NCBI GenBank assembly: GCA_015852425.1
Contig: JAAAIG010000843.1
Location: 4,250 to 16,437 of the forward strand
Source of the DNA: Gryganskiella cystojenkinii
Lineage: Eukaryota; Mortierellomycota; Mortierellomycetes; Mortierellales; Mortierellaceae
DNA length: 12,188 nucleotides
Direction of reading: 5' to 3'
A model generated the notes under the pieces. It was given only the letters and a program-made list of their open reading frames with translations, made no database searches and was not told the origin of the DNA. Below are positions 1 to 12,188 of the stretch, piece after piece (position 1 is the first letter of the stretch; every line of letters starts with the position of its first letter). Position numbers and translations under genes: made by a program.

Positions 1-300
1 TTTTTTTACTTCTTTCCCTCCGCCTTGCCTTTGTTTGTTGGGGTGGTCGGGTTGTGTCCAAGGTGTCGGGGTGTCAAGGTCGCTAGCTGTATGTTGTGTC
101 CGTTTGCCGATATGAAGGTGGTGATCAACCCCTCGTTGTCGCATCGCACGGATGAGCGCTCATGAATGACAAAGAAATAACATAAAAGCGGTCAAGCTCG
201 GGATGAGCATCGTCCCTGAGCATTCTCTGTGTCATCTGTGCGATCACTTTCAACGCCGAAAGTGCCCTTTTATCTATTTGCTCATCTGTGCTCTCTTTAT
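1..300. other. 3' flank of the methyltransferase gene; nothing further supported
   Basis: These 300 bases lie downstream of the stop codon at 301-303. On the minus strand an A-rich ATAAAGAGAG follows the stop at once, and AGATAAAAGG lies about 27 bases past it; either could serve for 3'-end formation, weakly. The left edge (about 1-50) is T- and pyrimidine-rich on the plus strand. Short frames here show no recognisable protein. Confidence 0.5.
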
Positions 301-1785
301 TCATTCTTTGCTCATTGCAATGTCACACGCTTTCGAGTGCCTGCTCTCTTTTACTGTAGTGGAATTGTCTGTGCCCTCACCAGTGCTCTGCAAGTCCTCG
401 TTCGAAGTGCACGTGTAGGGCCACTCTTTGACTTTTGTGAACACAAGGTAGCAGGCCTAATTGAAAAGAGTTGTATTAAGCAGTCAGTGACCAAAATACG
501 ACTACAGCAATACAGGTACAGGGTGCGAGCACCAGACTGAAAGACAGAAAATGATCATCGAGTCTGTCCGAATCCGGAAAAGGTCAATCTTACGTGAACA
601 ATGGGCAAGTGTGCGGTGGGCATTTCATCGTCAGGGATGCAGATCTCCTCCTGGAACTCGGACCAGTTTGTGATCTTACGCCTGTCCTTCTGATAGCCAT
701 CAGGTACGGCCTCGACTATTCGAGGAGTTAATATTAGTCGAGTTGGAAAAAAAATTGTCGCGGTCAGCCTTCGTGCACCATTAAACCTTCACAGGCACAA
801 GAAACTGGAGGCTCAAGCTGCTTACTTAATTCCTTGAGCTTCAAGCATTGATCGCCTACTACCCGGATTACATCCTCCATAAAAAGCATGCTGAGTGGTA
901 TCAGCTTGCCTGTCTCCGTCCGAAAGTCCTGCGCACCTATAACAAGTACACCGGAGAGCGGCAGACCTTGAGCCGCTTGAAGAGCAAGGTGCATGATGGC
1001 CGTCCTGTATGCTGTAATTTGATGAGACTGGAGAACAGTGCTCGGAATATGGGCAATCAATCGCAAGGCTGTCGGTGCTGGTGCAGGGAAAATTGGGGAC
1101 TCCTTTGCTATCTTGGTTTGGTGTCCAATGTCATCTGAGGTCTCTCCAAGATTCGTTATGAGGCCCTATTTCATCCAATGATATAGGCGTTAGAGGAGCA
1201 TGTCAATAGCACCATCCTTCAGTTTCCCGTCACACTCACCAGGGCCAATAACATCCGGTTGTTCTCTTGAATCTTTTGGAGTCGATCGCGCTCATACGAC
1301 ACAAGGCCATCCTCTTCAGGCGGAAGGGTATCTATCGTGGCGAGATAAATAAAATGTTTGATTCTTAACCAATTGAAGCTTTAAAGCAGCAGGTGACTTG
1401 TTCGCAAGACTCACCCACAGGTTTCTCATCCCAACGAGGGACTGATGCTTCATGTGGATCATCAAGTGTGAACCGCAGCTTGAGCTCTTCCCAATTCGTT
1501 TCGTTCTTGCCAAAGCGTTCGACCTACGACGGGTATCATAGGAACGCCAAATAGTAGCATGAGAGAAAAGAAAAAGAGTTCCATTGCAAGATTCAATAGC
1601 AGGTAGCCTTTCAAAGTTTTCAAGTTGCTTTACCATCCTGGAAGCACACAACGTGGGGAAATCAAACTCCTCGGTCGGTTTGAATGTCCAAACAGAGCCC
1701 ATGACCACGCTTTTCCGTTCGATCGGACAGCTTGGCGTCGCATGAAGCTGACTTGAAATCTTGACATGGTCCAAGATAGAGTAAT
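301..1785 (-). other. C-terminal block of the methyltransferase half, exons 15-20
   Basis: Residues 1750-2071. After VVMGSVWTFKPTEEFDF and VERFGKNETNW comes a charged helix (YERDRLQKIQENNRMLLAL). It is followed by a conserved-looking block: GVLVIGAQDFR (1938-1948), PLSMLFMEDVI, LKLKELIEAVPDGY and LPIVHACYLVFTK (to about 2028). That block resembles the late strands of an amino-methyltransferase without motifs I and IV. The last 40 residues are polar and unremarkable, ending at TGA (301-303). The last junction uses acceptor 457 because it restores the HACYLVF ending; a nearer acceptor at 537 would give a different tail. Confidence 0.65.
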
Positions 1786-4700
1786 CTGTTCATTCGGACA
1801 AACCACTCGTAAATATTTCAAATATCATAGTCAGCAAATGGTCAATCGCAGCCAAGCACAAGCTGTACGTCCTACTTACCAGGCCGTAGCACCATGGTAT
1901 CGTGTCCTTCCTTTGGAACTTTCCGCAGCGTTGCAATGAACTCGTGCGTGAAGCATAAAAAGTCGAATTGTACGCAGAGATAGGTACCCAACCCAAACAT
2001 TGCGCAGTATCTTTGTCTTTTGACAACAAGCTCCTCAAGTTCAAAGCCTTCATCAATATACTGGCGGATCATTTGAAAGCTCACTGGAACATAAAAGCAG
2101 TGCTCCCGATTGTCGCCGATGCCGAGAGTGCATCTACGGCCCATTTTCAGAACTCTATATGTCTCTCGAACAACGCTATTCATCTCGCGCTGGAAATCAA
2201 TGGTGTTTCCAAATCTCGAAAGGTCGCCTGAATTGGGTTGGACAGTAAAGCTCTGTCAGTAAAGGGTTATGCAAAAGTTCAGTATGAAATCATTCCAAAT
2301 CAGCTTGCAGGGTATACCGTCAATATGAGTGGAGTAAGTCACGCAGTCTTTGTACGGCGGATGGGAGAGGACATGGTCAAAGCTTTCATTTGCAAACATC
2401 GGTCCTTGAAGCCTTCGGGCGTCGCCTTGCAATATCATGGGACGATGTTCAGCTTTGATTGAGCCATCTTGTGGTACAGCAAAGGAGCAGTTCCGAATTG
2501 ATAGCGTGAGTGCCGTCTGAAACATAACACGACCGTCAGTTAGATTTCCTGGAGGAGCCGATATTTTGTAGATAGGCCTTATCTTCATAGTGACTGATTA
2601 CTTACAGGATTTATATCTATGGCTGTGCAACTGAGAGCTCATTGGTCATTATCATATTCAATATTCGAGGTCATCTCACTACTTTCATTATGTACAACTT
2701 ACCATCGTCCGAGCAAGAAGCACTCGATCGCATCTGTACCACGACCTAGAAAATTTGAAAGAATTTTGGCATTTGGCTTTGTGTATCGAGTGATTGCCCT
2801 TTTAAACGTATGATGCGTAAGTAGTCTATTCAACCGCAACAGCCAAAAGCGTATCAAGTCCTATTGCAGCGGATGAGAAACCCCTTTACCTTCTCACCGT
2901 CTGTGGGAGCCATGTTCCGTGATAGTCCGTCCCTGAATGGGTCGCCCCTAAAGAGTAGAAAGTTTTGTCCGTTGTTAATCTTCGCTGACTATCGTCGCGG
3001 AGTTGAAGAAAAAAAAAATCCTCCGCTTCAGCAAGGTGTGTTACATCGAGGAGCCCGGCCAGGAATATCGTAGTAGGTAGTATCCACAGGCAGGGAGTAT
3101 AGTTGATTCTCTGCAGGCCCATAAGAATCCAGATACACTGCCTGTGAAAACGAATGGTCGAACCGAACGGACGAAACTGCAGTCCGAGTCAAGTATGGCG
3201 AATGAGAGTAGTCTTCTGCCGAGGTCGCATAGTAGTCCTTTCCTTCCTGAATATCGAGATAAGTCTCAGCAGACATGAGCGCATCATCTTCTAGATGCTC
3301 ATCCTGCTGTTGTTCCTGTTGCAAATTCAGCACAGGTGTTGACTTGGGCTGTGGGGGTAGTTCTTTAACTGGCCCAGCCAAAAAACAATGTTCGCACATA
3401 AGCACACCTTGGTACCCTATATAAAAAAAAAAGAAAAGAGGAAAGAGCACAGTAATCATTAGTCATCAAAAAAACGACCGGTATATGAAGCCCTCTTCCT
3501 GCTTGCGTACCTTTCCTCCATGACGACGAGGTCGTTGACCAACAATAAGAGCATACACGCTTAGAGAGACTCCTCATCTTGGGTCTGTAGTTTATATGCT
3601 TCTTCCTCGCTGCCATGTTTTCATCCTGTTGTTGCACTTTTGATGCTTCCTCTGCAATTTGTTCGCTCTGAATCAACTCCAGGGCTATGAGGAAGTACCG
3701 TATATGAAAAATAGTTTAGACGTAGGCAGCTGTGACTCGGTGTTGATGAGTGTTATCGGCGCACATGATATCATTTATCCTCTGTGGTCTTTACATGTAA
3801 CCTTGAAATCTTCCATACAGTGCTCGTGTTTTCCACTGTCTTTCGCAAAACACTATCACGTTTTAGTTCCCACAAATATCGTTAATGCATGAGCAAAATG
3901 CGAGCAAGCTCAGTCCAAGAGAGCCGGACAGTAAAAATGTTAAATGCTTACCTCCTGACAAAGGTCAAAAGTATGAAAGTAATCCGAGCTGCATTTGACG
4001 CAGGTGTGCCAAGGGTACACTCCAAGGATTTTTGAGCATCGATCGCAGCTAAAAGACTCGTCATAAATCTCTATGAGACGGAAGACAATTAAAATATAGC
4101 TCGTTAGTGCCAAATTCCTGCCGCAAGCCTGTTTGCTGTGGCGATCATATTTCTTGATTTCTTGCCTCGTTGCTGCAAAGCACGCTCATGCTGCGGACAC
4201 CAAAAGATAACCCCGTCTTCGAAATGCGCCATGGGCTTTCCTGTACATGGCACATGAAAGCTGCGATAGCACTTTGGGTCGAAGCATCCTATGGTCGCGC
4301 CCTTTTCCTTGCAAACGGAGCATTTCTATTTTCAAAGAAGCCAAGAGGCAGAGTCAAGTCAGAGAGTTGTTAGCTGCTTCAAGCCCACTGATGATGAGCT
4401 TCAGATTTAGTTGCCCTACCACAGTTCGTCCTCGCCGCATCGCTGTTGAAACATTAAACCACGCTCCGTCTTTAGCTTGAATGACCTCTGGAGAGTATCG
4501 TGCACAGTTGTTATGTGCCCAAAACGGCCGACTCTTGGTGACGCCATATCGATTCGTGGAAGACAACAGAAATGGAAATGGTCCAATAAAACTGTCCCTC
4601 TCACTGCCCTCGTCATTACAAAACGCGCAAACTTTTCTACTTTTCAGCCTCTCGACCATCAGGTAGCCTTGATCGCTGTCTTGACCTATCCAAGTGCTTA

Positions 4701-7700
4701 GATCGCCTTGGTTCCCTGTTTCCATAGTTGCCATCATTGGTAGCTCTGGTTCACTGTAAGCCATATCCAGCTGATCCTTTTCGAAACGCGTAATAATGCC
4801 GCCTTTGACTGGATGCACGCCATTCGGCCCCACGATAACCTTGGTTGCAAAAGATGATCGTGGGTGATCATGATGCTCCGGAAAAGCATTCGAAAAGCAC
4901 CACAAGCATAAATTGAATGGATTGCTATCAGATCCAGCAGATTTTGCCTCAACCTCGCAATACATGCAGTAAATACTGTGTTTGTCAGGAGTTATAAATA
5001 AAACAGAGTAAAAAGAGGAGTAGCTTAGCAATTAGGTGCTATCAACGGTATTGAGGTCAAAATTACACGTAATAGATTTGATCATACCGAAATTGACTGA
5101 TTTTGACACGACATTGGACACAGTTGACTTCCATGGCGGCTTCTTCAGCCGAAACGCTCTCTGCAAGCTTTGTCATCTCGGCCGTGGATGCGGCAGACTC
5201 GCTCATCAAAAGTTCCTCGTCATCAGGCTTGGCTGTGGGCGAGACCGAGCAATCGTTGGTCTCCTCGAGGGCGCCGGGACTTGTATTGGCAGTCGTACCG
5301 GACCTAATATTGCCATCAGAACTGGCGATAGGTGTCTCGTCTGGAGTAAATTGTGGAGTAGCAATCGGCTGCGCCAACCTCGGATCATATTGGAGACGTT
5401 CACTGTTGATGTCGATCCACTCGTCGTACACCGCATGATATCCCTCATAATGCACAAGAACTCGACTGTTTCTGACATCCTTGATCAAAGCTGACAGCCA
5501 TTCCAATTGTTTATCTCTAGCTCGGATCCGTGTTCCTGGAACCATCTTGCGTTTGAGGAACGTGATGTGGTTATCGACGAGGACCCGCTTCCCCTTGCTG
5601 GATCGGGTTAGACTTCGAAGACTCTGAAAGGTTCCTCCACTGGTGTCCTGATCGTCCTGGTTTTGGTGGGGATTGAGCATGGACTTGAGAAGTCGACGTT
5701 CTTTCAATAGTTTGGCCATCCTGCGCTGTTTTTGTTTTGCCTTTTTGATATCTAAGGATTCTTCTTTCTGGATGACAACTTTCGGGGTCTCAATATAGCC
5801 AGCTTCATTGAAAAGAAGATCAGCCGTGCCCGCACCTGAGATTCCGAGAATGCGCGACGATAGCGATCCAGGACGCCTGATGCCTTGTTTGCGGTCTGAG
5901 AGAACTTTGGTCAGCCTGACTTTGCTTCGTTCAAACGTGTTGTTGAGAATGTCCCGTCGATCGGATTCATTATAGATGACTTGGCGATCAAATTGTACCA
6001 TAGGCGAGTGGCACATATTCCTTGTAGCCAATTCTCGCATCTTTCGTAGGTGCTCTGGATCCTTCTCCGCCTTTAACACTCGCCTTTGTGTCTCAGTAAT
6101 GTCTCTACTCCTCCCTGTGAAATTGCCCGTTCGATTGGCTAGCGCCTCTTGCCGAGCCTCTAGGATGGCGACAAACTTTTCTTTCGTCTTTGTTCTCTTG
6201 TAGGTGTCTTCACCCTCTCCTCCGCCATTGCTAACGTTTGCAGGCCCAAGACCAGTCTGTTTCGTCAATAGTGGCGCCTCCTCCGGAGGATAGATCACGA
6301 TGCTGTTGAGGACGAGCCCAGTATTCAAGACGCGGTGAATGATCCTGCGGATCTCTGACTCCTCGTCGTCGTATTGGAATTGTTCAGTGTCCTCCGCCTG
6401 AAGGCCAAGATTAATCGGGTTCCCTGGAGTACTTTGAACTTGAGGCCGCTCCGTGGAGGTAGAGTCTCCGTCTCCTGTGTGTTGAGGTTCAGGTGACGGC
6501 ACTAAGGGTGGCTCGATGATCTCGGTGCCATCGAAGGTCGATTCAACTGATGTATCGCTCATCGAACGGGACCGCAACGGTGACGATAGAGTTGTTGCCT
6601 GCACGCCATCCGAATCAGTGCGCCATGGCGATATCTGATTGATTTCCATCACATAATCCTTCCCTGTAAATTCCAGGCTGACAGCACCAGCAGCAGTGGT
6701 GCTCACATCCGTATCACCAATATTGTCTTGAGGCAACGACAACGACAATGGAGACTTGATGTCAATCGGTGGCCATTGTTCGATCTCAGAGGATCCATTT
6801 GCCAAGACATGTTTAGATCGCTTCACGTCCTTTTCACTAGTGTTGTTGCGCTGAGTCACGGACAGACCCTGAACGAGTTCTTCGGTCACCAATGAGGAGA
6901 GCTTGCGCTTTGAGGATCCTTTCTGATTCTTCTTCAAGCGTGGCTGTTCGGATATAGCTACCACCGTTCCATTTTCATTAGACGAGCTCCGGTTGGGTGT
7001 TACTGGGTGAGTCCGGGCATCGATATTCAAGGCGGTGTTGATGCTCACATGATCTAGATAGACCTTTCGTTCCTCTATCTCCGTTTCTGTCAACACGCTC
7101 AATCGGCGGCTATCCGAGGTGATCCACTCGTCCCACTCGGGACCCCACTCATCAAATCGAACTCGAATCCTGCCTTGTTCTAAAGCCGCCATTGTTCCAA
7201 AATACCAAGTACCATCCACATGGCGCACCTTCACAGGTCGACCGAAGGTATATCCGTGAATGTTGGCATCCTGTCCAATGGAGGCTTGACCTCCGAGGAG
7301 CTTTGATGCCGTCCTTGTTAAGAATGCTCCGGTGGTGTGAAAGTCTTGAGCATTGGATTCATCCATTGGACGGCTGTTGGAACCGATACCGAACATGTTA
7401 TCACGCGGTGCTATCGCTCGGGGAGGTATATGACTGTCCAGAGCTTTTGGCTTCCTCCCACGTTTCTTTCCTACTTTAGCAGAGGGAAAAATAGAATGGA
7501 ATGCGGAAGGGACTTTCTTTGGCTCTTTCAAAGCGACTTCTGTACGATCTATAGCGCAAAAGAGTTAGTATCCCCAGTTAGTGCAACGGCAATCTTGGCA
7601 AAAGGACATTTTAAAGGTGAGGAGTCCTCAAGCATCGATCGTTTTATGCAATATACCGTTAGCTAATACCCATTTATCACCACCTCCCAGTTCTGTGGTC

Positions 7701-8338
7701 TGCTGAGTCACTGAGGCTGAGTTAATGTGAGTAACGGAAGCCGAGGGCAGTGTTTCGATAGCTTCGGCGCAAGTTCTGATTGCGTTCGTGTGTTGTGCAT
7801 CGCGACTCTCACCAGTTTGACGTGTGAACCCTATACACAAACGAAAACGTGTCAGTCGTATGTTTCTCGATTCATAATCAAACGCTAACCCACCCATACG
7901 CAAACCGGAGCCTTCTCCATCCTCACCTTGGCCTAGCTTATGGGTCAGGTCGAAGATCTGGTCCGTTGGAAGCGCGCTTAAAGGGACAGACAACGCGTCC
8001 TTAACGTGGTTCTGATCAGGAACAAAGCCAGTATTAGGCCTAACAGGCTGTTGCTTCAGCCTTCCGCTTCCAGCTATGGCACGCATGAGTCGGTAGCATA
8101 CTTTGCACACGTTGAGTCGGCCGAGTTTTAGGATCTGAACACCCGTCAAGTTACAGGATTCACAGGACTTTCCCTGGATGTGAATGTTGGAAACGGTGTC
8201 CTCCTCTTGTTGGTCAGCGCCGCCTGTTGGGCTTCCTGAGCCTTGGATTAGCAAGTCGGCAGGGATAGGGACTTTTCGGGGTCTCCCTCGACCGCGCTTA
8301 GGTACGACCTGGACCTCTGCTTGCGTCATTGGCTCCAT
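301..8338 (-). CDS. Tudor/PHD/ZZ/GATA-finger chromatin reader fused to a bacterial-type DNA amino-methyltransferase, 20 exons
   Basis: Predicted exons in transcription order: 8338-7894, 7830-7657, 7548-5088, 4975-4420, 4325-4166, 4070-3952, 3852-3795, 3684-3511, 3416-3045, 2947-2890, 2798-2703, 2630-2606, 2516-2318, 2227-1880, 1785-1634, 1523-1415, 1331-1240, 1165-826, 715-594, 456-301. They total 6216 nt (2071 residues) and every junction keeps phase. The start at 8338 lies in a strong context (CCCACCATGG), and the extended frame upstream is closed by a stop. Seen in the translation: AT-hooks (about residues 15-22 and 234-241), a GATA-like finger (59-81), Tudor-like domains (308-358, 877-928), ZZ-like (1016-1064), extended PHD (1143-1258), ZZ (1274-1316), GATA finger (1369-1393), methyltransferase (about 1490-1748) and a C-terminal block (1800-2071). 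Inferred role: nuclear enzyme that reads histone marks or DNA and methylates the exocyclic amino group of adenine or cytosine in DNA. An RNA substrate cannot be excluded. Least certain junctions are 2890/2798, 4166/4070 (GC-AG) and 594/456. Confidence 0.85.
1880..3096 (-). other. Catalytic amino-methyltransferase domain (bacterial type), exons 9-14
   Basis: The spliced translation (about residues 1490-1748) reads DTTYYDIPGRAPR, WATHSG..YHGTWLPQT, then ITRYTKPNAKILSNFLGRGT (SAM loop, motif I, around 1542-1547), AIDINP (acidic residue Asp1563 after strand 2), LQGDARRL, and DHVLSHPPYKD (catalytic motif IV, HPPY at 1618-1621). GRRCTLGIGDNREH and ELEELVVKRQRYC follow. This order and the tryptophan-ATH...W-P...RY segment match prokaryotic N4/N6 DNA methyltransferases. 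Members transfer a methyl group from SAM to adenine N6 or cytosine N4; which one cannot be decided from motifs. A THUMP/Trm11-like RNA methyltransferase is the main alternative, but no THUMP domain is visible. Confidence 0.8.
3385..3553 (-). other. GATA-type zinc finger, split across exons 8 and 9
   Basis: Cys1369-x2-Cys1372-x17-Cys1390-x2-Cys1393 with the core SSSWRKGYQG matches the GATA finger pattern (CxxC...T.lWRrg..G..LCxxC). The 3417-3510 intron falls inside the finger, at a Gly codon. GATA fingers bind DNA with GATA cores. Here the residues after the last Cys (FLAGPV) differ from the usual GLYYK, so specificity may differ. The finger lies about 100 residues before the methyltransferase and could target it to DNA. 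Confidence 0.75.
3820..4047 (-). other. ZZ zinc finger 2, split across exons 6 and 7
   Basis: Exon 6 supplies Cys1274-x2-Cys1277, Cys1289-x2-Cys1292 and FDLCQE with Cys1303. The small 58-nt exon 7 opens with Cys1306-Phe and then KHEHC (His1314, His1316). The DLCxxCF signature and terminal His pair are standard for ZZ fingers. The motif is complete only if the 3853-3951 intron is removed and exon 7 is included, which is how that exon was found. Confidence 0.8.
4071..4165 (-). other. Probable GC-AG intron between the ePHD and ZZ exons
   Basis: Exon 5 reads past the ePHD and meets a TAA with no good GT donor. The sequence CGAG|GCAAGA matches the consensus of the minor GC-AG intron class, and CTCATAG lies 95 bp further. 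Joining there keeps phase and yields HERALQQREIYDESFSC straight into the ZZ finger. A weaker GT donor (GTGCTT, 20 bp upstream) also keeps phase but fits consensus poorly. Confidence 0.6.
4188..4629 (-). other. Extended PHD (ePHD) domain
   Basis: The pre-PHD half shows Cys1143-x2-Cys1146, then FWAHNNCARYSP with His1181 and Cys1184. After the 4326-4419 intron the PHD half shows Cys1214-x2-Cys1217, Cys1226, Cys1231, FHVPC with His1236/Cys1239, and FWCPQH with Cys1255/His1258. This is the C2HC plus C4HC3 layout of ePHD modules found in MLL-type, JADE/BRPF and PHF6 proteins. These modules bind histone tails or DNA and sit in chromatin regulators. It is the clearest single sign of a chromatin function here. 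Confidence 0.85.
4864..5122 (-). other. ZZ-like zinc finger 1, split by an intron
   Basis: Cysteine pairs Cys1016-x2-Cys1019, Cys1030-x2-Cys1033 and Cys1050-x2-Cys1053 are followed by a His cluster (His1061, 1062, 1064). That is the cross-brace arrangement of a ZZ or related finger. The first pair ends exon 3 and the rest begins exon 4 after the 4976-5087 intron, whose removal restores the motif, so motif and splice prediction support each other. ZZ fingers often bind histone H3 tails or protein partners. Confidence 0.65.
5384..5539 (-). other. Tudor-like domain 2 of the fusion protein
   Basis: Residues about 877-928 run PGTRIRARDKQLEW, RVLVHYEGY, YDEWI and NSERL. This closely follows the PHF20-type Tudor pattern (RLEAKD...W, VLVHFE..., YDEWI, S.RL) and is the better conserved of the two Tudor copies. 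About 520 residues of low-complexity, Ser/Thr/Gln-rich and basic sequence separate it from Tudor 1, so the two probably act as independent reader modules. It ends about 90 residues before the first zinc cluster. Confidence 0.8.
7094..7246 (-). other. Tudor-like domain 1 of the fusion protein
   Basis: Residues about 308-358 contain VRHVDGTWYFGT, RIRVRFDEW, WDEWI and SRRL in order. This is the pattern of the PHF20/chromo-barrel type of Tudor domain: basic first strand, aromatic W-Y, V-x-F-x-x-W, then DEWI and a closing R-L. Family members bind methylated lysines on histones or p53 through an aromatic cage. The aromatics are present, but binding specificity cannot be read from the sequence. Confidence 0.7.
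7831..7893 (-). other. 63-bp intron without stop codons, in phase
   Basis: GTGGGT donor, CTGAC branch site and TTTGTGTATAG acceptor mark a short intron between exons 1 and 2. Its length is a multiple of three and it has no in-frame stop, so unspliced RNA would still code, adding 21 residues (GLAFDYESR...LCI). The adequate splice signals favour removal, but the sequence alone cannot exclude that it is exonic or retained. Confidence 0.6.
8096..8164 (-). other. N-terminal GATA-like zinc finger next to an AT-hook
   Basis: Residues 59-81 of the fusion protein show Cys59-x2-Cys62-x15-Cys78-x2-Cys81, a treble-clef spacing close to GATA fingers (normally x17-18). About 40 residues before it, RGRGRPRK (residues 15-22) is a textbook AT-hook that would bind the minor groove of AT-rich DNA. 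A second AT-hook-like stretch, KKRGRKPK, lies near residues 234-241. Together they suggest that the N-terminus contacts DNA directly. The call rests on motif spacing only. Confidence 0.6.
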
Positions 8339-9742: not shown

Positions 9743-12132
9743 ATGGCTGTTAGTCTCTTGCCACCATCAAACCCTCGTCCTCAAACCTCGTGTATATCTA
9801 GTACGGACAAGAAAGCATATCCCGCAATGAAGACGACAACATCTGGTCGCGCCTTCGCGAAGGTACGACACCATTTGGTACACAGAATATCGATGAAGCG
9901 GGAAAGGTCGAAACACAACTGACTGACTGCAGGATCCTTCTGAACTCGACTTGTTTCTTTATTAGAACATCTTTGACCTCTTCGCGACCTTGATGATCTC
10001 GCTCCCGATCGAAACTCACAAGAGCATGTTCAAAAGTTATCCAAACTCTTTTACAGCCGAAGAGGCCATCCGAAACTTACGAGGGCTGCAGTTTATTCAA
10101 GCTCACAAAGAAACGGACCCCAAAGACCCAACTAGAATCATCACGCGGGTCGTTACCACCCAGTTCTCTCTCGCTCCAGACATGGCCAAGAACCTCTGCC
10201 AGACCTTTATGGACGCTCGGCTGTGCGAGAATGCCGTTGATCCCGGAAAGAGAGAGTTTCAATCCAAAGGTGTCTACCAAGTCACGGGGAAAGGTGCCCA
10301 CATTGTTGAAAAGTTCGTCCACAGAAACTCTTTATCGGTCGATGACACACGGCACATTACTGCCAATGCGACGCCAAGGATCTTGTTCCTGGAGAGGACT
10401 GAGGATGAGGATGCGATCGTGTTGAATCAAAAAGCAGTCGACGCTATCTTTAAGCGCTTTGCGGGGCTTAAGCCAAACACTACCGCGGCCTCCTCATATG
10501 CAGGGTCGCCTGGTGGAGATGGACCAGCCTCGAGTCCAAAGCGTGATCGAGTTCAGGTCAATGCTGATCGTTGTAATGGTATCGAAGTCAAGGATCAGCA
10601 ACACAACTATGATATGTACAGACACACGTTCTACGGAAAGGCGGCAGTCGAATGGCTGTTGGATTATACTACTGTCATCAGCAAAGAGGAGGCTATCCGG
10701 ATCGCCCAAGAAATGGTCACCGCAAGGTACATTGAGCAGGTCGGAGAGGAGGTCGGCCCAGGGCCATCACTCTTCAGGAGTGGAAACTCTGCTCTATATC
10801 ATTTTACTGAGCTTGGACGGGCGGTCGTTGGTTGGGAAAGTTTCGTCCGCAGCCGCAACAGCAGCGTGAACACAGACTGGATGGATGGTAAGGAAAAAAA
10901 AAAAAAACTTCAGTGGCTAGCATATTCGTAAATCTCTCGTTGCGACATCATGCCTGCTTGTTCTAACTGAAACAATATCCTTTTTACTCATAGAGAAATC
11001 TCCATTGGGGCCAAGACTGGAAAGAAGCCACCCTGAGATGCATCTACTCTCGACTCAATTCAAGTTGACTTCGAGCACTACTCCTCGGCTACCCATCTCG
11101 GTGACCAGGGAGAGGCAGCGATCGACAGACGAATCATCGCTCTACAATGGAACTGCAACACTGTCTTCTGCGGACGACACCCTCAGCCAGTCTAGTCGGC
11201 GTCTGTCTCAGATTCTCAATGACCCCGCACTGCAGTTTTCACTCTCCGATGCTCCTTCGAATTATGCGCCGTCATCTACCGGAAAAGAGTCGGTCGGCTA
11301 CCGGGAGTGTAACGGCAGTATAGCAGGCTACAACAGCAGCGGTGGCGTTTATTCTTCCTTTTCAACACCCATTACAACATCTTCTTCTCAAGTCACAACC
11401 TCCGCTCGCCTCAATTTGATTCTCTCCAATTTGACATTGAGAGAGATGTTCAAAAGCTTTTTGAAACAAAATATCTGCGAGGAAAACTTGTCTTTCTATT
11501 TGGAAGTTCTAGACTACAAGAGTCGCTTCAACACCTTGATCCACTCTACTCGACTATACGCTCAATCCTTAGCGCTCCTTGTAAGTCAACAGCAACAGCA
11601 AGACAGTATAGTGACCCCAGACGCAGCAACCGAAACGACTCCTGGATTATCTGCAGCAGTACCGTCACAGCCGGCGCCTCACCCAACCACTTTGCGGGAG
11701 CTCGAGAAACAGATCTGCACACAGGCTTTCGCTATCCACGAGACGTATTTGATTTTGGGAGCTCCCAAGGAGCTAAACCTACCTCATCAGATGCGTCAGG
11801 ATATCACGACGTACATGCAGGCTGTTGTCAGGAACATGGAAATGCCAGAGTCAACACCATCTTTAGCCGAAGCAGGTCCTTTAGGACCTCCACAATTCCC
11901 CAGACTACCATCAGACGTTGGACCAACAGAGAATGAAGGGAGAGGTAGCTACGGAGCCGGCAGCGCCGGTAGCAGTAGTGCTAGCGGCAGCAATACGTCA
12001 GGTTCAAAAGAATTGATTCACATCTCACTCTTTGACAGGATCCACGAACATGTCTTCAGGCTAATGTCAACAGACTCTGTCCCCAAATTCATTCGCACAG
12101 ACAAGTACCGCGAAGTGATGATGAGCAAGATC

Positions 12133-12188
<56 letters not shown>
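9743..12188 (+). CDS. Sst2/FlbA/Rgs1-type regulator of G-protein signalling (DEP-DEP-RGS), 3' end outside the window
   Basis: Exons 9743-9862, 9966-10887 and 10994-12188 (open at the edge), with phases agreeing; about 745 residues are visible. The ATG at 9743 is the first after an in-frame TAA at 9689. DEP1 (about residues 41-160) contains IFDLFATLMISLPIETH and SFTAEEAIRNL. DEP2 (about 243-331) contains FYGKAAVEWLLD and ALYHFTELGR. The RGS domain starts near 490 (LREMFKSFLKQNICEENLSF), continues with FAIHETYLILGAPKELNLP, and ends near 720 with SVPKFIRTDKYREVM. In this family DEP domains tether the protein to G-protein-coupled receptors at the plasma membrane, and the RGS domain speeds GTP hydrolysis on the G-alpha subunit, ending pheromone, nutrient or growth signals. 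The RGS core is split by two polar loops (Gln/Pro/Thr-rich; Gly/Ser-rich) and abuts a polyglutamine run. No other family fits. Confidence 0.9.
9863..9965 (+). other. First intron of the RGS gene, with a decoy acceptor
   Basis: Donor AAG|GTACGA and acceptor TTTCTTTATTAG join Ala-Lys to the DEP1 start NIFDLFATL in phase. A nearer acceptor, GACTGACTGCAG (ending 9932), also follows good branch-like CTGAC copies, but its use reads GATCCTTCTGAA... and stops at the TAG of the real acceptor. Confidence 0.7.
10888..10993 (+). other. Second intron of the RGS gene
   Basis: Donor GATG|GTAAGG and acceptor TTTTTACTCATAG, with a TCTAACTG branch-like site, join exon 2 to exon 3 in phase at a Glu codon. The frame otherwise ends at a TAA (10929-10931). 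A run of 13 adenines (10894-10906) follows the donor closely. The exon 3 frame is open for 1195 nt to the window edge. Confidence 0.85.
12136..12188 (+). repeat. Perfect CAA trinucleotide repeat encoding polyglutamine
   Basis: At least 17 uninterrupted CAA codons plus a partial one start directly after MMSKIK at the end of the RGS domain and run to the window edge, so full length is unknown. All codons are CAA with no CAG, which suggests recent slippage expansion. Smaller CAA/CAG clusters occur in the RGS loop near 11587-11603. Confidence 0.95.

Follow-up and report, generated by a model that had tools for sequence, protein, structure and literature searches.

A predicted gene of the fungus Gryganskiella cystojenkinii (Mortierellomycota) joins a series of putative chromatin readers to a methyltransferase of prokaryotic type. 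It lies within a stretch of 12,188 nucleotides (the window; positions 4,250 to 16,437 of contig JAAAIG010000843.1, assembly GCA_015852425.1), whose source contig has 16437 bases in an assembly of 35.0 Mb and 1050 contigs. The catalytic and degenerate lobes of the methyltransferase match those of a two-lobed family of prokaryotic methyltransferases, some members of which are encoded directly before nuclease genes, and the fusion of such an enzyme to Royal-family, ZZ-like, extended PHD (ePHD) and GATA-like modules is, as judged from deposited proteins, old in fungi. The protein is probably a chromatin-targeted DNA amino-methyltransferase, with DNA as the presumed substrate.

The gene and its reading frame

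The gene model is as follows.

301..8338, minus strand: whole gene, predicted, 20 exons, 2071 amino acids (phase, splice signals, alignment to six orthologues)
8338-7894, 7830-7657, 7548-5088, 4975-4420, 4325-4166, 4070-3952, 3852-3795, 3684-3511, 3416-3045, 2947-2890, minus strand: exons 1-10 (gene model)
2798-2703, 2630-2606, 2516-2318, 2227-1880, 1785-1634, 1523-1415, 1331-1240, 1165-826, 715-594, 456-301, minus strand: exons 11-20 (gene model)

An earlier sequence-only reading of this DNA had proposed a 20-exon, phase-consistent frame holding reader domains and a methyltransferase with FLGRGT and HPPY motifs, which splice signals, orthologue alignment and Pfam bear out. Spliced translation from the sequence alone stays in phase through all 20 exons from the ATG at 8338 to the stop at 301; 18 of the 19 introns are GT-AG and one, after 4166 within the ePHD/ZZ region, is GC-AG. 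Orthologue alignment showed that the preliminary model, from a simple splice search, contained one incorrect microexon and two spurious pieces (7 and 9 residues), and four borders were then corrected against the orthologues: the exon 3 donor (5088), exon 7 (3852-3795) and the acceptors of exons 8 (3684) and 11 (2798). The corrected exon 7 completes a ZZ-like finger. The corrected model shows 60.0-62.7% identity over 1476-1554 columns to single deposited proteins of Entomortierella, Linnemannia, Podila and Dissophora. The top protein match is a partial NCBI model from G. cystojenkinii itself (P0001, 662 residues, 97% identity), which begins in exon 7 and has no HPPY stretch; its C-terminus differs from that of the present model, whose final ~17 residues are therefore uncertain.

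Relatives were searched with the methyltransferase part (36 proteins), with residues 880-1700 of the preliminary model (157 proteins at E<=0.001) and with a profile (58 proteins); the first and the last of these searches scored only about 8000 candidates sharing most words. Counts of relatives given below refer to the 120 listed of the 157. To judge from these 157 protein matches, the 120 listed being at E<=1.3e-163, a chance match of the frame is excluded.

Two methyltransferase lobes

The methyltransferase part comprises the following features.

1712..3096, minus strand: lobe 1, catalytic, about residues 1490-1773 (PF01555; PADLOC Type II methyltransferase PDLC03376, E 4.6e-34; predicted fold)
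2735..2752, minus strand: FLGRGT, S-adenosylmethionine (AdoMet)-binding motif I, residues 1542-1547 (sequence)
2352..2363, minus strand: HPPY, catalytic motif IV, residues 1618-1621 (sequence)
424..1711, minus strand: lobe 2, degenerate methyltransferase copy without motif I, residues 1774-2031 (profile comparison; predicted fold)
1043..1057, minus strand: IAHIP, lobe 2 counterpart of HPPY, residues 1903-1907 (H kept, PPY lost)

The PDLC03376 match was obtained with the preliminary-model sequence, which contains one spurious 9-residue piece. Motif I (from residue 1542) precedes motif IV (from residue 1618), which is the unpermuted order. The lobe 1 motifs recur in the listed relatives as F[LS]GRGTD (114/120), SHPPY (113/120) and GDNR (112/120), and SHPPY is missing in the other seven because that stretch is absent from the deposited models. 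In lobe 2, the histidine of IAHIP is present in 110 of 114 fungal rows, the remaining four being gaps. Profiles were built from rows in which both lobes could be located by a text pattern (114/185 protein rows, 31/80 prokaryotic). They revealed an internal duplication in the prokaryotic family (lobe 1 against lobe 2, 97.7%, E 2.1e-12) and matched prokaryotic lobe 2 to fungal lobe 2 (hhalign, 99.4%, E 1.5e-21). By profile comparison, prokaryotic lobe 2 is a degenerate copy of lobe 1 and is shared by the fungal proteins, making a putative one-chain pseudo-dimer.

The structure prediction covered the two lobes, and the solved structures nearest to the predicted fold of lobe 1 are the tRNA methyltransferases Trm11, TrmN and Trm14; among PDB sequences, the fungal domain matches aTrm11 best (5e71, E 1.3e-4). 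Neither a TIGR01177 (Trm11) nor any other NCBIfam match at E<=1 nor a THUMP domain at E<=0.1 was found in the window protein. The same protein has no match at E<=0.1 to PF05063 (MT-A70), its motif being HPPY and not DPPW, or to PF02384 (MetB-type N6_Mtase), and membership of MT-A70 or MetB is ruled out by the lack of these two matches. The earlier description of a prokaryotic-type amino-methyltransferase unlike MT-A70, fused to histone and DNA readers, is upheld.

Prokaryotic relatives and their neighbours

Bacterial and archaeal genomes were scanned with three prokaryotic homologues: at least 593 stretches matched, at least 559 encode relatives, and 80 were kept, mostly metagenome-assembled and from many phyla, archaea included. 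A hidden Markov model (HMM) of fungal lobe 1 gave 94-229 bits (median 205) for all 73 members tested, 7 of the 80 rows being left out as having <=300 residues. Elsewhere it gave at most 64.8 bits for three other unpermuted methyltransferases, 43.9 bits for 21 open reading frames (ORFs) from PF01555 loci (presumed permuted, pattern-picked and not checked singly) and 18.5 bits for four Trm11-like proteins. With the lobe 2 HMM, the top score was 61.6 bits in the prokaryotic family, compared with no more than 11.2 outside it. With these two-lobed Type II amino-methyltransferases (PDLC03376; PF01555) the fungal protein shares the order X-I-IV, FxGxGT, HPPY, GD-x-R, KRQ and the degenerate second lobe. 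In contrast to them, the fungal proteins add about 1500 residues of putative chromatin readers and sit on a long stem, and no recognised nuclease lies beside the fungal gene in the window contig.

A different ORF on the same strand lies directly downstream in 63 of the 80 prokaryotic loci (63 and not 64, because the ORF at locus L051 is itself a fragment of the methyltransferase). One or two representatives were tested per downstream cluster, and the nuclease-represented clusters, namely DpnII endonuclease (10 loci), a Type II endonuclease with DUF6996/6997 (5) and PD-(D/E)XK_11 (3), total 18/80 loci. Representatives of clusters of 15, 12 and 7 loci match no Pfam or PADLOC nuclease; these families may be undescribed restriction endonucleases. 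The earlier reading had noticed neither the degenerate second lobe nor that some prokaryotic relatives have nuclease genes next to them.

In the search for a companion endonuclease in the fungus, one neighbour proved to be a DEP-RGS gene, and the other side (contig 1-4300) holds no uninterrupted ORF of >=110 residues, although an intron-split gene is possible there. The fungal gene is a relative of a restriction-modification methyltransferase only, not a restriction-modification system. The DEP-RGS gene (window 9999-12186, plus strand, divergently transcribed; DEP 1.3e-21, RGS 5.1e-17) encodes a putative G-protein signalling regulator and runs off the window in a glutamine-repeat stretch.

Reader modules

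The following modules precede the methyltransferase.

8273..8296, minus strand: AT-hook RGRGRPRK, residues 15-22 (sequence; VKRGRGRPRK kept in 3/6 aligned orthologues)
8096..8164, minus strand: small CxxC-X15-CxxC zinc knuckle, residues 59-81 (sequence; no Pfam family at E<=0.1)
7462-7445, minus strand: second, weaker AT-hook RGRKPK (sequence)
7094..7258, minus strand: Royal-family domain 1 (Tudor/chromo-like), residues 304-358 (sub-threshold SAWADEE and MORC2-chromo matches; conserved in orthologues)
5378..5554, minus strand: Royal-family domain 2 (MBT/Tudor), about residues 872-930 (PF02820, E 1.3e-7)
4870..5125, minus strand: ZZ-like zinc finger 1, residues 1015-1062, exons 3-4 (Cys/His spacing; ZZ_ADA2 E 0.0068 in relative P0028, below cut-off)
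4182..4635, minus strand: ePHD, residues 1141-1260, exons 4-5 (PF13771 1.4e-12, PF13832 9.3e-9)
3814..4047, minus strand: ZZ-like zinc finger 2, residues 1274-1318, exons 6-7 (Cys/His pattern; PF00569 E 0.0079 in relative P0166, below cut-off)
3385..3553, minus strand: GATA-like finger CxxC-X17-CxxC, residues 1369-1393, intron-split (PF00320 E 0.0057, below cut-off)

In a Pfam run on the preliminary model cut in three, MBT (PF02820), ePHD (PF13771) and N6_N4_Mtase (PF01555, 7.9e-10) were over the cut-off. The ePHD assignment is supported by both PF13771 (48.1 bits) and PF13832 (35.9 bits), each over its cut-off. The GATA finger is under it (16.7 against 26.8 bits); relative P0121 bears a precomputed PF00320. 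No ZZ call was made by Pfam in the window protein, and relatives reach only E 0.007-0.008, also under the cut-off. P0075 and other relatives pass the cut-off for MBT, Agenet, MORC2-chromo-like or Tudor profiles. Loose text patterns, used with no control, find the ZZ-like Cys/His series in 108/120 listed relatives, a GATA-like series in 70/120 and an AT-hook core in 55/120. From their sequences, the modules look like a Royal-family, ZZ, ePHD, ZZ and GATA series of readers with presumed ligands.

Distribution among fungi

Both ePHD and PF01555 occur in one deposited protein in 95 of the 120 listed relatives (precomputed domain table), from Mortierellomycota, Mucoromycota, Glomeromycota, Basidiobolus, Kickxellomycota, Dimargaritales and two chytrids. 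Further named relatives come from Calcarisporiella, Kickxellales and allies, Smittium and Syncephalis, and the chytrid relatives from Spizellomyces, Fimicolochytrium, Geranomyces and Borealophlyctis. The protein of the rozellid Paramicrosporidium saccamoebae (P0166) has the ePHD, a sub-threshold ZZ and the methyltransferase, with no Royal-family match. Mucor lusitanicus bears the gene (P0131). Deposited names are mostly 'hypothetical protein'; the Mucor ambiguus orthologue is named 'DNA methylase N-4'. No Ascomycota or Basidiomycota names stand among the matches listed (120 of 157, some rows nameless), by which absence from Dikarya is not proven.

In the tree, the eukaryotic rows, from rozellid and chytrids through zygomycetes, form one clade on a long stem. 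The 95 listed proteins and the rozellid with both domains thus point to an old fungal gene. A recent private capture is ruled out by this spread and the single clade. Of the independent prokaryotic capture proposed earlier, the prokaryotic type of the methyltransferase stands; a recent or local event does not.

Three metagenome proteins, P0160 (911 residues), P0163 and P0034, group with Paramicrosporidium, hinting at further rozellid-like carriers; P0160 and P0034 have an ePHD plus the same type of methyltransferase. P0071 of Ambispora (2695 residues) also has protein kinase domains and is probably a gene-model fusion. A PF01555 search of the G. cystojenkinii genome gave nothing at E<=0.1, presumably because introns split the domain, and is uninformative on copy number; PF02384 gave one place under the cut-off (0.013) and MT-A70 two places over it. 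Among viral contigs, 0 of 23 pattern-matched stretches were confirmed with the fungal profile and 1 of 21 with the prokaryotic profile as a relative, which ruled out a viral carrier of the gene.

Proposed function and alternatives

The protein would most likely act as a histone-reading, DNA-writing enzyme in one chain. The readers would dock on modified histones and DNA, lobe 1 would move a methyl group to the exocyclic amino group of a DNA base, and lobe 2 would be the DNA-binding, stabilising half; target sites would be set by chromatin state as much as by sequence. METTL14 and Mta9 are DNA-binding or stabilising halves for their partners, offering an analogy for lobe 2. MT-A70 enzymes (Mta1/AMT1, METTL3-METTL14) resemble the two-lobed fungal protein in that an active and an inactive half act as a pair, but they belong to another family, and the fungal protein has both halves on one chain.

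The methylated base could not be inferred from motif IV or neighbour genes. A slight lean, amounting to a guess, is to N4-cytosine over N6-methyladenine (6mA), because MetB and Mta1 are reported to cover asymmetric and symmetric 6mA in Mucor, which has the gene. In M. lusitanicus, metB deletion lowers total 6mA by 70-75%, MetB makes most of the asymmetric 6mA, which metB mutants lose, and mta1 or p1 mutants lose all symmetric 6mA (PMC11258239). These roles would therefore leave N4-methylcytosine (4mC), or 6mA limited to sites or stages, for the fungal protein. MetB is likewise a bacterial-type DNA methyltransferase kept in early-diverging fungi, and it writes asymmetric 6mA; it differs in being a PF02384, MmeI-like enzyme with its own target recognition domain (PMC11258239), whereas the fungal protein has no PF02384 match.

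Bdelloid N4CMT likewise arose by capture of an amino-methyltransferase of the PF01555 type, which is joined to a histone reader of the Royal family. It is of the permuted (beta) type with a C-terminal chromodomain, is known from bdelloids and is without eukaryotic homologues (PMC8885841). In contrast, the fungal protein is unpermuted and two-lobed, has many N-terminal readers and is spread over early-diverging fungi. It is therefore a separate case, and the independence from N4CMT asserted earlier is supported by motif order and readers alike.

A possible though less favoured variant, overlapping with a chromatin-targeted DNA amino-methyltransferase, is that the same capture produced a third 6mA writer for particular sites or stages. 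One prokaryotic neighbour cluster is DpnII-like, in keeping with this variant, and endonucleases of the DpnII family cut GATC, usually protected by 6mA. Early-diverging fungi are rich in 6mA, and in Mucor it is not wholly lost on metB deletion, but the metB and mta1/p1 mutants account for asymmetric and symmetric 6mA, so that a third writer would have little left to do under the conditions tested (PMC11258239).

It is unlikely that the enzyme methylates RNA (e.g. tRNA or snRNA), with readers that only tether it to transcribed chromatin. The tRNA m2G methyltransferases Trm11, TrmN and Trm14 head the structure list and supply the nearest PDB sequence, although being unpermuted may by itself be enough to rank a fold above permuted DNA methyltransferases in such a search. 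These enzymes carry a THUMP domain and a DPPY-type motif (DPPYG in L086 and L088), neither of which was found in the fungal protein. The scores of the restriction-linked family, far above those of Trm11-like proteins, also speak against RNA. The tree comprised 30/34 rows named as eukaryotic-type (some of them metagenome proteins), 36 prokaryotic rows (three plus every second of the loci that could be extracted) and 3/4 Trm11-like rows, the latter drawn from eight genomes as their best matches to TIGR01177 and all scoring under the TIGR01177 cut-off; its outgroup branches were flagged as long. In the approximately unbiased (AU) test, nesting of the fungi inside the Trm11-like rows was rejected (p 0.0002), while their grouping with these rows was not (p 0.147). 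Evidence on descent is thus mixed. The placement inside RNA methyltransferases that the earlier reading had set against itself fails as nesting and survives as a looser grouping.

Still less probable is a protein that is no longer an enzyme, whose methyltransferase lobes provide a chromatin complex with a scaffold, either structural or AdoMet-sensing. HPPY is atypical, and lobe 2 has lost motif I, so that decay does occur in the family, but a scaffold should not require motifs kept as widely as the three of lobe 1. An artefactual joining of two adjacent genes, also raised by the earlier reading against itself, is very improbable: some Mortierellaceae models split the gene (e.g. P0003 and P0084 of Mortierella alpina, whose locus tags are consecutive), but such an artefact is rejected by the 95 listed single proteins with both domains, two chytrids among them, and by the rozellid P0166.

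A further-reaching history is tentatively put forward, with somewhat less than an even chance. A two-lobed restriction-modification methyltransferase would have been captured in the fungal stem lineage and fused to histone readers, and early-diverging fungi would have used it since as a third, so far unrecognised DNA writer (4mC or chromatin-directed 6mA), with a catalytic and an inactive half on one chain. That Dikarya lack such marks would then be explained in part by the apparent loss of the enzyme.

Significance

No paper describing the fungal two-lobed family was found in the literature searched; eukaryotic amino-methyltransferases are reportedly surveyed by Iyer (2016), so that an earlier mention is possible. 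The available parts of PMC13297926, PMC12695648, PMC7862722, PMC8298701 and PMC12344493 do not mention the fungal protein, and 'PF01555' is absent from the main text of PMC11258239. Orthologues are mostly called 'hypothetical protein' and some are split or truncated, and for this reason the family may have been overlooked. The protein is probably an overlooked route of chemical chromosome labelling in early-branching fungi, with a presumed activity.

Early-diverging fungi are among the eukaryotes with the best-supported unusual DNA methylation, for which the reported writers are MT-A70 complexes and MetB. The present family would add a third candidate writer, already joined to putative histone readers, in a rozellid, chytrids, zygomycetes and mycorrhizal fungi, and it opens the question whether fungi have 4mC or some other amino mark to direct testing. 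If the proposal is true, it would be another case beside bdelloid N4CMT, apparently older and wider, of a prokaryotic amino-methyltransferase turned chromatin enzyme.

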